This document shows, one piece after another, positions 15,843 through 50,409 of a stretch of DNA of 64,000 bases (positions are counted from its first letter, which is position 1; each line of letters begins with the position of its first letter). The stretch comes from Promicromonospora iranensis (lineage in GTDB: Bacteria; Actinomycetota; Actinomycetes; Actinomycetales; Cellulomonadaceae). The stretch spans positions 372,001 through 436,000 of the forward strand of contig NZ_JAJQQP010000004.1 in NCBI RefSeq assembly GCF_028994805.1, written 5' to 3'. A program made the translations under genes and the position numbers. The notes under the pieces were generated by a model that was not told the origin of the DNA, did not search any database, and saw nothing but the letters and a program-made list of their open reading frames with translations.

Positions 15843-15919
15843 CCCGACCCGTTGAGTGCTGGCAATGTGCGCCGAATCGGCCTGAGAGACCACAAATAGC
15901 CAGCACTCAACGGGTCGGG
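15843..15919. repeat. Dispersed intergenic hairpin, family A, copy 1
   Basis: Arms at 15843-15863 and 15899-15919 are perfect complements over 21 bp, with a 35-nt loop. The arm contains CGTTGAGTGCTGG, the family word also found in both arms at 21770-21832 and 50347-50409. It sits between the converging phosphodiesterase and DUF6510 genes, so it probably works as a two-way terminator. Conservation of the arm sequence goes beyond what termination needs. Confidence 0.8.
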
Positions 15920-15925
15920 TGGGGG

Positions 15926-16183
15926 TCAGCGGCGGAGTTCGATCGCGCTCAGGCCCGCCAGGCTGAGGATGAGGCGGTCGCCCGCGTCGACGATCGTCGC
16001 GAGCACCTGGTCGCACCCGGCGCAGCGGGCGACGAGCCCTGGCGCGCTGGTGTAGACCATGGCCTCGGCGATCGCGGACATCCGCCCGCAGCCGCCGCAC
16101 CGTGCGCGGGCCGCCGTCACGTCGGTGGTGAACACCTCGGAGAGTGCGCCGGCGAGGACATTGCCGTCCAGGTGATCGGTCAT
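15926..16183 (-). CDS. DUF6510 family zinc-ribbon-like small protein
   Basis: 85 aa. Two CxxC pairs, RCGGCGRM (near residue 30) and RCAGCDQV (near 54), sit about 20 residues apart, suggesting a small zinc ribbon. The C-terminus LILSLAGLSAIELRR is hydrophobic then basic. The ATG follows directly after the stop of the ferredoxin reductase gene with no gap, so the two are translationally coupled. The three-gene order molybdoenzyme - ferredoxin reductase - DUF6510 suggests an accessory or electron-transfer partner of that redox pair. The function is not known. Confidence 0.75.
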   Translation of the reverse strand: MTDHLDGNVLAGALSEVFTTDVTAARARCGGCGRMSAIAEAMVYTSAPGLVARCAGCDQVLATIVDAGDRLILSLAGLSAIELRR

Positions 16184-16945
16184 CTAAAGGCCTCCGAAGC
16201 GTTCGGTGTGGATAGCCGTCGCGGGGTGGCCGAGCTCCTGCAGCCAGCGCGCGACCGTCTCGACGAACCCCGTCGAGCCGCAGACGTAGACGCGCGGCTG
16301 CCGCGCCGCGGGAAGGGTGCGGGCGGCGAGCGTCTCCCGGGTGAGCCGTCCCACGGCGTCCGGCCAGCCGTCGGGCGCCTCCCGGGTGTAGACGAGGTCC
16401 AGCGAGAAGGCCGGCCCGGTGAGCGCGGCGAGCTCGTCCGCGAAGAACACGTCCGCGGGCGTGCGGACCGAGTACAGCAGCCGGAACGGCGCGTCGTCGT
16501 CGGCGGTGCCGTGTGCCGCGGCCATGGCGTAGAGGGGGACGACGCCGGAGCCGCCCGCGACGAGCTGGACCGGGCGGTCGCTCTCCCCGGGCCGCCAGAC
16601 GAAGAACGCGCCCAGCGGGCCGTGCAGCTCGAGCTGGTCGCCCGGCCGCATCTCGTGGACCAGGAACGGCGACACCTCGCCGTCCGGCTGCTCGTCGACC
16701 GCGAGGACCACCTGCGCCTCCGGAGTCGAGGACACGATCGAGTACGAGCGGCTGGCCTGGTAGCCGTCCGGAGCGGTGAGGCGCACGTCGACGTGGGACC
16801 CGGCCTCGCTCCCGGGCCACGTGGGCACCTCGAGGGTGAGCCGCGCGGCGGTGGGCGTCTCGCGGCGGGTCTCGACGACGGTCGCGACGTGCCACGCCGG
16901 ACGGGGCCGGGACCGGCCGACGGAGGTCAGGGGTGGGGCGCTCAC
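16184..16945 (-). CDS. FAD/NAD(P)-binding ferredoxin-type reductase
   Basis: 253 aa. The GTG start overlaps the stop of the molybdoenzyme gene by 4 nt (GTGA), giving translational coupling. The FNR superfamily layout is clear: an FAD domain with RSYSIVSST (the RxYS flavin motif, about residue 67), then LHGPLGAFF, and an NAD(P) domain with LVAGGSGVVPLYAM and YVCGSTGFVETVARWL at the C-terminus. No iron-sulfur cysteine cluster follows, so it is a stand-alone reductase. It probably passes electrons between NAD(P)H and the molybdoenzyme encoded just upstream. Confidence 0.85.
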   Translation of the reverse strand: MSAPPLTSVGRSRPRPAWHVATVVETRRETPTAARLTLEVPTWPGSEAGSHVDVRLTAPDGYQASRSYSIVSSTPEAQVVLAVDEQPDGEVSPFLVHEMRPGDQLELHGPLGAFFVWRPGESDRPVQLVAGGSGVVPLYAMAAAHGTADDDAPFRLLYSVRTPADVFFADELAALTGPAFSLDLVYTREAPDGWPDAVGRLTRETLAARTLPAARQPRVYVCGSTGFVETVARWLQELGHPATAIHTERFGGL

Positions 16946-48391: not shown

Positions 48392-49303
48392 ATGACGCAG
48401 ACCACCGCGCAGCTGACGCACACCACCGCGCAGCGGACCGCCACACCGCGGCACTACCTCATGTGCCCGCCCACGTACTTCGACGTCGTCTACGCCATCA
48501 ACCCCTGGATGGACCCGTCCTCGCCGGTCGACACCGCCAAGGCCATCGCCCAGTGGGAGGCGCTCCGCGCCGCCTACGAGGCCCGCGGCCACCGGGTCGA
48601 CGTCATCGACCCCGAGCCCGGCCTGCCCGACATGGTCTACGCGGCCAACGGCGGCATCGTCGTCGGCGGACGGGCGCTCGCCGCCCGGTTCACCCACCCG
48701 GAGCGCGCGGCCGAGGGCCCCGCGTACGACCGCTGGTTCGACACCGCGGCCGCCGCGCCCTACGGCCGGCTCGGCGAGGCCGTCGAGACCATGGAGGGCG
48801 AGGGTGACCTCCTGCTGATCGGCAAGCTGCTGCTCGCGGGCACCGGCTTCCGCACCACGCCCGCCGGCCACGCCGAGGTGGCCGAGCGCCTGGAGCTGGC
48901 CGAGCAGGGCATCGAGCTGGTCCCGCTCGAGCTCGTCGACCCGCGCTACTACCACCTCGACACGGCGCTGTCCGTGCTGGACGACGGCGCCGTCTCCGGC
49001 GAGACCCTCGTGGCCTACCACCCCGAGGCGTTCAGCCCCGCCGCGCAGGAGACGCTGCGCCGCCTGTTCCCCGACGCGATCCTGGTCGGCGCCGACGACG
49101 CCGCCGTGCTCGGCCTGAACGTCGTCTCCGACGGGCTGCACGTGTTCCTCAGCGACCGTGCCCGTGACTACGCCGACGCGCTCAAGGAGCGCGGGTTCGT
49201 GCCGGTCGGCATCGACCTGTCCGAGATCTTCAAGGGCGGCGGCTCGGTCAAGTGCTGCACGCTCGAGCTGCGCCCCACCACCACCGAGGAGACCCAGCGA
49301 TGA
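48392..49303 (+). CDS. Dimethylargininase/amidinotransferase-superfamily hydrolase
   Basis: 303 aa. After a Thr/Gln-rich N-terminal stretch comes HYLMCPPTYFDVVYAINPWMD, the usual DDAH entry. Further marks are DMVYAANGGIVV, ELVDPRYYHLDTALSVLDDG (with the catalytic His), and the C-terminal GGSVKCCTLELR, whose second cysteine is at the nucleophile position. Members hydrolyse N-omega-methylated arginines, or arginine itself, to citrulline. The coupled ornithine cyclodeaminase and the divergent Lrp-type gene argue for a role in arginine or ornithine breakdown. The stop and the next start share ATGA. Confidence 0.88.
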   Translation: MTQTTAQLTHTTAQRTATPRHYLMCPPTYFDVVYAINPWMDPSSPVDTAKAIAQWEALRAAYEARGHRVDVIDPEPGLPDMVYAANGGIVVGGRALAARFTHPERAAEGPAYDRWFDTAAAAPYGRLGEAVETMEGEGDLLLIGKLLLAGTGFRTTPAGHAEVAERLELAEQGIELVPLELVDPRYYHLDTALSVLDDGAVSGETLVAYHPEAFSPAAQETLRRLFPDAILVGADDAAVLGLNVVSDGLHVFLSDRARDYADALKERGFVPVGIDLSEIFKGGGSVKCCTLELRPTTTEETQR

Positions 49304-50328
49304 CCACAGTCCCGTACCTCGACGTCGCCGCCACCGCCCGCTGGGTGGCCCGCCGTGGCCCCGAGGCCGCCATCGCCGCGCTCACCGACGCCCTGGAGCG
49401 CGACTTCGCGCGCTGGCCCGAGCTCGACAAGCGGCCGCGCATCGCGTCGCACTCGAAGGAGGGCGTCATCGAGCTCATGCCCACCTCCGACGACGAGACC
49501 TACGGGTTCAAGCTCGTCAACGGGCATCCGCTCAACCCGGTGAACGGCTTCCAGACGGTGACGGCGATCGGCATGCTCGCCTCCGTCCAGAACGGCTACC
49601 CGTCGTTCCTGGCCGAGATGACGCTGCTCACGGCGCTGCGCACCGCCGCGACGTCGGCGCTGGCTGCGCGCTACCTGGCGCCTGCCGGGTCCCGCACCCT
49701 CGCCCTGATCGGCTGCGGCTCGCAGGCCGAGTTCCAGGCGCTCGGCATGCGCGCCGAGCTGGGCATCGAGACGCTGCGCATCTTCGACGTCGACCCGCTC
49801 GCCATGGAGAAGCTCGCGCGGCACGCCAAGGCGCTCGGCTTCGACGTCGTCCTGGCCGACGACGCCGCTGACGCGGCCCGCGGCGCCGACGTCATCACCA
49901 CGTGCACGGCCGACAAGCAGAACGCGACCGTGCTGCACGACGCCGACGTGACCGGCGGGGCGTTCATCAACGCGATCGGTGGCGACTGCCCGGGCAAGAC
50001 GGAGCTGGACCCGGCGATCGTCGCCCGCGCCAGCGTGTTCGTGGAGCTCCCGGAGCAGACCCGTATCGAGGGCGAGATCCAGCGGCAGGCGGCGGACTTC
50101 CCGGTGACCGAGCTGTGGCAGGTCGTCACCGGTGCCGCGCAGGGCCGCCGGAGCCAGGACGAGCTGGTCGTGTTCGACTCCGTCGGGTTCGCCGTGGAGG
50201 ACTGGACGGCGCTGAAGTTCGTGCTCGCCGACGTCACCGCGAACGCGCCGGAGCTGCTTCAGCACCTCGACCTGATCGCGGAGCCGGAGGACCCGAAGGA
50301 CTTGTTCTCCCTGGTGGCGGACGCCTGA
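49300..50328 (+). CDS. Ornithine cyclodeaminase
   Basis: 342 aa. ATG overlaps the previous stop by 4 nt. The mu-crystallin/OCD fold is clear: IELMPTSDDETYGFKLVNGHPLNP (substrate Lys and Glu region), TALRTAATSALAARYLAPAGSRTLALIGCGSQAEFQALGM with the NAD motif GCGSQA, INAIGGDCPGKTELDP (catalytic Asp region) and ELPEQTRIEGEIQ. It converts L-ornithine to L-proline and ammonia using bound NAD+. With the hydrolase upstream it would support use of arginine-type compounds as nitrogen source. The gene ends at hairpin A copy 3. Confidence 0.9.
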   Translation: MTTVPYLDVAATARWVARRGPEAAIAALTDALERDFARWPELDKRPRIASHSKEGVIELMPTSDDETYGFKLVNGHPLNPVNGFQTVTAIGMLASVQNGYPSFLAEMTLLTALRTAATSALAARYLAPAGSRTLALIGCGSQAEFQALGMRAELGIETLRIFDVDPLAMEKLARHAKALGFDVVLADDAADAARGADVITTCTADKQNATVLHDADVTGGAFINAIGGDCPGKTELDPAIVARASVFVELPEQTRIEGEIQRQAADFPVTELWQVVTGAAQGRRSQDELVVFDSVGFAVEDWTALKFVLADVTANAPELLQHLDLIAEPEDPKDLFSLVADA

Positions 50329-50346
50329 CCGCCCACCACCCCCGTT

Positions 50347-50409
50347 CGTTGAGTGCTGGCTATCTGTGCTCTCAGAGCCGTTCTGACCACAGATAGCCAG
50401 CACTCAACG
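50347..50409. repeat. Dispersed intergenic hairpin, family A, copy 3
   Basis: Perfect 22-bp arms (50347-50368 and 50388-50409) with a 19-nt loop and the family word CGTTGAGTGCTGG. The arm continues CTATCTGTG, close to the other copies. It lies between the converging ornithine cyclodeaminase and GH16 genes. Confidence 0.8.

Follow-up and report, generated by a model that had tools for sequence, protein, structure and literature searches.

A 63/64-bp palindromic repeat with shared arm words at gene ends of Promicromonospora, probably of REP/MITE/RPE type

Rickettsia palindromic elements (RPE) are presented, in the parts of the publications available to us, as long stem-loop repeats of several families, 105-146 bp in length (PMC2229807), which lie between genes and are also fused in frame within conserved protein genes, their target-site duplication being marked ‘?’ (PMC2229807, PMC10969869; a further source, also available in part, is PMC6649704). 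The same sources, within the same limits, describe bacterial miniature inverted-repeat transposable elements (MITEs: Correia/NEMIS, ERIC, RUP, SPRITE) as small, intergenic, sometimes in frame and in some cases terminator-like (PMC2229807, PMC10969869). Here we analyse a family of hairpins noticed in a 64,000-nt stretch of a Promicromonospora genome (contig NZ_JAJQQP010000004.1, positions 372,001 to 436,000; the whole stretch is called the window), where an earlier inspection of the letters, the original prediction, had singled out three hairpins with a fixed 13-nt arm word, each between converging genes. We know of no enzyme that mobilises RPE. Repetitive extragenic palindromes (REP) and the bacterial interspersed mosaic elements (BIME) that they form are short extragenic palindromes at gene 3′ ends, present in tens to hundreds of copies; the foot of REP hairpins bears a conserved tetranucleotide.

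The element in question resembles REP/BIME as a short palindrome at gene 3′ ends. It also resembles RPE, as far as the available descriptions of these go, as a stem-loop repeat found between genes and in frame within protein genes. Unlike RPE, with the length given above, it is 63 or 64 bp long and for the most part adjoins stop codons, and its terminal motif is common across genera while its inner arms are genome-specific. With MITEs it has in common a small size, inverted repeats at the ends and a large number of copies. It differs from MITEs by ends in CG rather than TA, by about half their size, by a nearly complete palindromy and by the lack of a clear target duplication and of any parent insertion sequence seen. 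No description of a 63/64-bp family of this kind was found in the literature, as judged by titles and abstract openings in a coverage that mostly excludes subscription journals.

We consider it fairly probable that the hairpins are a miniature palindromic repeat of REP/MITE/RPE type, which would have spread by insertion, whose arms would be read by a trans-acting protein and which would be kept in place under selection. In favour of this mobile origin, we observed that copies are numerous, that sites may be filled or empty, that some inserts are in frame, that the word is constrained and the pairing maintained, and that the arms are specific to the genome. In-frame palindromic repeats in protein genes are best known from Rickettsia, and here they occur in high-GC actinobacteria, for which over a dozen species are sequenced, so that insertion, loss and rewriting can be traced site by site.

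Structure and copy number of the element

The window holds three near-perfect palindromes, each 63 bp from outer C to outer G, with the exact 13-mer CGTTGAGTGCTGG at both ends of all three. The shared word in all six arms was therefore confirmed, while the variation in size proposed for the three hairpins was not. Their coordinates are as follows.

15850..15912: element copy 1, 63 bp; the stem extends to 15843-15919; outer words at 15850-15862 and 15900-15912
21770..21832: element copy 2, 63 bp; outer words at 21770-21782 and 21820-21832
50347..50409: element copy 3, 63 bp; outer words at 50347-50359 and 50397-50409

Allowing up to 2 mismatches, the 13-mer matched 10 times in the window against a shuffle mean of 2.16, and none of 100 shuffles reached 10. 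A covariance model, built partly from these copies, retrieved the three elements and no other match in the window at E up to 1; no Rfam family matched the window at gathering score.

In the whole source genome (G000; 5.84 Mb, 31 contigs) the exact 13-mer occurs 75 times and its reversed control not once. (G, L and row numbers denote genomes, stretches around copies and numbered slots, respectively.) Each exact word was joined to its best partner 40-59 bases away, and all partners carried 0-3 mismatches, which gave 47 elements, of which 37 measure 63 bp and 10 measure 64 bp. Genome-wide the word is thus neither rare nor unpaired, and its other copies are not words inside genes that lack a hairpin, in line with the family that had been proposed. 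Exact inverted pairs of a 12-mer number 34. A relaxed search with the heptamer TGAGTGC found 59 inverted pairs at the element spacing and, among those listed, variants with TGAGTGCGGG and TGAGTGCGTG in which the opposite arm was altered to match, so that the 13-mer is not the invariant unit it had been taken for. The genome contains about fifty to sixty copies.

The element is 63 or 64 bp long, with CG(T/C)TGAGTGC ends, two arms of ~24 bp and a centre of 15-16 nt. Copies of 63 bp hardly vary at positions 2 and 4-13 and are free at 14; they mostly read TAT at 15-17, T or C at 18 and TG at 19-20, and their centres vary. A centre near TCGAAACGTTTCGA is common to most of the ten 64-bp copies. GAGTGC is also present in the half-site of CIRCE (controlling inverted repeat of chaperone expression), the HrcA operator, from which the element differs in spacing and order.

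Pairing of the arms is maintained at the free positions. Among 36 of the 37 63-bp copies (L061 left out), 12 of 27 pairs had changed on both sides (shuffled 9.2; 1 of 500 shuffles), as had 78 cells (shuffled mean 37.7; none of 500 shuffles), and none of 500 shuffles reached the covariation score. Sliding the partners by one to three bases lowered the paired cells from 88.5% to 32-40%. Pairing alone cannot explain the word, since position 14 is free between the fixed positions 13 and 15. The pattern as a whole, with positions 1-13, 15-17 and 19-20 nearly fixed, 14 free and the inner word set per genome (see below), suggests a trans-acting protein that would read the arms as DNA. In the 63-bp copies, the mispairs found at positions 14, 18 and 21 were of the G-T/T-G type in 7 cases and A-C/C-A in 10. 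As the former are not commoner, a constraint on one RNA strand was rejected and the palindrome looks symmetric on both strands.

Position relative to genes

Genes were called with a codon-usage open reading frame caller made for this analysis, not taken from annotation. By these calls, 19 of the 47 copies lie between convergent genes, 21 between co-oriented and 2 between divergent genes, and 5 are inside genes in frame. A stop codon lies within -6 to +22 bp of 40 of the 42 intergenic copies and, in 10 of the 47, the predicted stop codon is supplied by the element’s own end. The genome-wide rule of placement is therefore to adjoin a stop codon, rather than always to lie between converging genes. 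The latter, as originally predicted, holds for the three window copies and fails for the family. Convergent gaps are nevertheless enriched beyond chance, as that prediction had proposed to check: they make up 19 of 39 gaps with a copy and 24 of 179 without (Fisher p = 4e-6), and divergent gaps are depleted (2/39 vs 37/179, p = 0.02), in a comparison covering the window and the stretches around copies. A wider sample of 125 distinct elements from several species (G000 plus 80 of at least 88 stretches matching the exact word) gave 62 convergent, 46 co-oriented, 3 divergent, 11 inside genes and 3 undetermined.

The predicted neighbours of the window copies are listed here; the stop codon of the minus-strand gene at copy 2 is supplied by the last 6 bases of the element.

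14987..15835, plus strand: predicted gene with a GDPD_2 Pfam match, ending 14 bp before copy 1
20069..21757, plus strand: predicted gene with a pyridine nucleotide-disulphide oxidoreductase match, ending 12 bp before copy 2
21827..22333, minus strand: predicted converging gene, stop codon inside the right arm of copy 2
49300..50328, plus strand: predicted gene with an ornithine cyclodeaminase match, ending 18 bp before copy 3
50427..51728, minus strand: predicted converging gene, ending 17 bp after copy 3

Such a location, a stable hairpin directly 3′ of stop codons, is that of intrinsic terminators, and the copies could serve converging genes as two-way terminators or 3′-processing hairpins, with selection acting on the hairpin and gene conversion spreading it. 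The distances to stop codons, the bias of gap orientation and the predicted folding energy of the three window copies (about -39 to -53 kcal/mol on either strand) agree with this. Nevertheless, no U-tract follows the stems: at each of positions +1 to +10 of 94 stem ends, T accounts for 7-26% and G for 36-64%. A terminator scan of 15000-23000 returned neither of the copies in that interval, which its restriction to loops of 3-8 would have kept out in any case. In eight of the ten cases where a copy separates two plus-strand genes, the second gene is predicted to start 8-40 nt further on, other copies are inside genes, and the arm words are fixed in a manner that pairing would not impose, with position 14 free between fixed neighbours. 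The terminator moved by gene conversion, one of the options first raised, is weakened by the missing U-tract and by copies between close cistrons and within genes, and we regard it as improbable. Under the favoured mobile origin, copies would survive where they do little harm: directly after stop codons (chiefly where the gap between convergent genes is short), between cistrons and, in frame, in those parts of proteins that vary. In transcripts they would form very stable 3′-end hairpins and, like REP elements, may serve to protect or trim the 3′ ends.

As in RPE, insertion in frame within protein genes occurs, in 11 of the 125 distinct elements. These copies fall in six kinds of gene, some being mutually orthologous: ABC ATPase (4), xanthine-dehydrogenase-like (2), FbiC (2), DnaE2-like polymerase (1), double-ABC ATPase (1) and unassigned (1); names that go beyond the Pfam matches are presumed. 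All 11 are read in the frame ..LSAG(Y/H)..; of the 47 copies in G000, this frame is open in 32 and the second stop-free frame in 43. The best alignment of the DnaE2-like protein to a solved DnaE is interrupted at the insert. A linker of FbiC holds the element in 5 of the 11 genomes with an FbiC match (G000, G002, G003, G007, G009), while G004, G005, G006, G008, G010 and G012 have FbiC without it; G001 and G011 gave no FbiC match at the threshold used. For gene annotators, this means that the element is read through in FbiC, DnaE2-like, ABC and xanthine-dehydrogenase-like genes.

Orthologous slots and inner-arm dialects

In the sister species G002, the element is kept in 40 of 46 locatable slots (one of 41 counted automatically proved by eye to be another hairpin). 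Among the six slots without it (rows 8, 15, 26, 33, 34, 45), five hold another palindrome by eye, that of row 8 being a family B palindrome (described below) as confirmed by pattern. By eye, the more distant G008 keeps it in five slots (rows 16, 30, 32, 37, 38). The empty slots there number at least nine (rows 4, 9, 12, 14, 17, 18, 20, 22, 31), several others contain family B or C palindromes, also by eye, and for five the locus was not located. Filled and empty orthologous sites, as judged by eye, are consistent with copies that would have spread by insertion, presumably by an enzyme.

The outer word has hardly changed between the sister species. Over the 32 slots with no more than 8 interior differences, the outer 12 bp show 9 differences in 768 positions (1.2%; 14/960 in all 40 slots), the next position 11/64, the following six 15/384, positions 20-24 in this frame 40/320 and the remainder 38/425. 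Baselines for the same pair are 12.4% at third codon positions (1361/10946), 3.1% at first, 2.3% at second and 8.1% in non-coding sequence. The contrast of the outer word with third codon positions is strong (Fisher p = 1e-30, sites taken as independent), even if the figure for the word is somewhat lowered because the G000 copies had been picked for the exact word. Between these two species, the suspicion that the word itself is selected is thus supported, and selection would hold copies in place once inserted, whatever its cause.

At one slot of the 40 the element is inverted (row 38; L065 2501-2563 vs L106), with 12 differences forward and 1 inverted, and row 11 is possibly inverted as well (9 vs 4). 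Centres diverge widely at eight rows (5, 6, 12, 19, 31, 32, 37, 39), so that the notion of every copy as an old unchanged slot was dropped; no clear donor for the changed centres appeared among the copies compared. For terminators, the slots point both ways. By eye, another palindrome often stands in a slot that lacks the element in a sister species, which speaks for a selected hairpin. However, stop and start nearly abut by eye in rows 4 and 31 of G008, and gene conversion is weakened by the missing donor, copies sharing their arms.

Exact pairs of the word number 0-49 in each of 13 congeneric genomes and, among named genomes, all but one of at least 80 stretches with the exact word are from Promicromonospora, the other from Antribacter. 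The covariance model built from the 47 copies, applied with stringent filtering and a ceiling of 24 scored candidates per genome, matched in 46 of 220 genomes of the family, in 13 of 25 genera and in 13/13 Promicromonospora genomes. Among 60 high-scoring matches in six other genera, both heptamers are exact in 45, whose span is 63 or 64 bp in 44 and 65 bp in one; the outermost three bases of the other-genus matches are mostly CGC or CGT. Across genera, the outer CG(T/C)TGAGTGC and the length are largely retained, the next ~15 bases being lineage-specific. Examples of genome-specific inner arms are GGAGTAGTTGTCGTC in G181, GTGATTTTGGCGGTG in G140, GGAACTTTTGTGCGACACG in G172 and TGGGTTTTACACGCG in G203, with exceptions such as L305, L309 and L292. 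At the level of the order, the heptamer pair was found in 21 of 396 genomes and the reversed control in 3; many of these matches are single and without palindrome, as could arise by chance. Palindromic bodies outside the family were present, among the matches listed, in G344 (10), G564 (two) and G291 (one).

The strangest feature is the genome-specific inner ‘dialects’ at orthologous sites. By crude motif classes, the inner word is TATYTG in G000 and the named P. iranensis and P. kroppenstedtii (186 arms vs 3, with 5 unclassed) and TTCGCCC-like in strain MEB111 (34 vs 2); other Promicromonospora are mixed. At orthologous slots, 29 element pairs have switched dialect on both arms. In 17 of the switched pairs (the best per slot, some slots recurring), the outer 13 bp differ at only 12 of 442 positions. 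Centres at switched slots share longer words than those of other slots (mean 6.7 vs 4.4; 1 of 2000 shuffles), over few slots. Their ungapped identity is not above shuffles at eight 63-bp slots (2490/5000), and 87 of 5000 shuffles reached that of five 64-bp slots, a class that has a common centre. Slot-specific centres are plainly kept in two slots, the L057 group (18 nt) and L183/L225 (10 nt). In the first (L057 2501-2564 and orthologues), the 18-nt centre GGTTGATGGCCTTCGCGC is present in at least 6 genomes, while centres elsewhere drift; the neighbouring gene resembles siroheme synthase, as read by eye from the protein.

Tentatively, and with more doubt than confidence, we propose that a protein might recognise two arms 50 bp apart, in each by an outer word together with an inner word particular to the lineage. 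A shift of this specificity from TATYTG to TTCGCCC would have been followed by the rewriting of scores of dispersed sites where they stand, the outer word staying as it was and, at some sites, the centre too. This would be a genome-wide concerted change of dialect outside known uptake or CRISPR systems, and would concern elements that can also be translated as parts of proteins. Since the inner words are genome-specific, the reading protein could be sought by co-variation.

The same data suit an explanation without mobility, in which the copies are dispersed sites of one chromosomal DNA-binding protein of the nucleoid- or chromosome-organising type, arising and rewritten in place by selection as its specificity changes, gene 3′ ends being simply harmless places. 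An outer word that has diverged by 1.2% where it stands, the freedom of position 14 amid fixed bases (a pattern of contacts rather than of pairing), the 63-65 bp span of all 45 of the 60 other-genus elements with both heptamers, an inner word that follows the genome in the 29 switched pairs, the near identity of the outer 13 bp in the 17, and a centre identical across the switch over 18 nt in one slot and over 10 nt in another are all points for it. Yet the in-frame copies within six kinds of gene resemble insertions, slots of the element are seen by eye to contain similarly sized palindromes of other families in sister species, shuffling yields centres as similar as the 63-bp ones at the eight switched slots, and there is no candidate for the protein. 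We judge this explanation unlikely.

Dialects particular to a genome at orthologous sites also resemble, by analogy, those of the DNA uptake words of natural competence, kept by molecular drive, and an uptake word had been among the first suggestions. Uptake words occur about once per kilobase, however, whereas only 59 heptamer pairs, about 60 copies, exist in this 5.84-Mb genome, and every exact word is partnered at one spacing. Such a function seems hardly credible here.

Origin of the copies and other palindromes in the slots

Several results weigh against the mobile origin that we favour. No clear target-site duplication was seen in 195 elements, flank matches for k of 2-10 being at most 3 points above control; a 2-bp CG duplication would be indistinguishable from the palindrome, and palindromic CG is also present in the control. 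Nor was an autonomous element seen behind the 75 exact words of this genome, each partnered ~50 bases away, in a search for long elements confined to this genome and to exact ends. No match to the Y1 transposase (Y1_Tnp, PF01797) of REP-associated tyrosine transposases (RAYT) was found in any of the 13 Promicromonospora genomes, whereas the control search was positive in 5 of 14 named genomes; mobilisation by RAYT was accordingly rejected, and the element differs in this from REP/RAYT systems. Ends at 1.2% divergence are unlike neutral relics, so that mobility alone does not explain the data. Finally, gain is polarised against loss only by the FbiC insert, missing in 6 of 11 genomes. Taken together, a REP/MITE-like element, as first suggested, is still the best fit, although the analysis found neither a mobilising enzyme (RAYT included) nor a target-site duplication nor a function.

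A DUF559/MTES_1575-type endonuclease gene lies between two copies ~1 kb apart (L052 2501-3571), a pair also found in P. iranensis by the exact-word scan of named genomes. Considered as a partner of the element, the DUF559 endonuclease was rejected, since a simple motif picked out no second gene of this type among the 262 genes called in the vicinity of copies. Carriage by phages found no support, the exact pattern having no match in viral contigs.

Other palindrome families share this habitat. Family B (GAG..CTARGTT ends) has 0-74 exact pairs per genome and family C (GTTGTGGGCG ends, 61 bp) 0-70, mostly in different congeneric species (C in G004, G005, G006 and G008; B in G003, G009 and G010). 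The centre of family C is conserved and asymmetric (CCTAAAACGGGC..GTAG). By eye, families B, C and further ones fill slots that hold the 63-bp element elsewhere, and since several families share the same gene-end slots, selection for the slot and for the element can be told apart by test.

Two further palindromes of the window, both of 58 bp, belong to repeated families as well. That at 36781-36838 represents family E (TCGGTCCGTTGCTCTGAGATCGGTC...), found also at L045 1424 and in other species. The near-perfect one at 42062-42119 belongs to family D (TCGGTAAAAGGTCAGG...), with similar copies at L034 767, L052 4582, L054 3058 and L064 76, in which a four-base block varies and remains mostly complementary.

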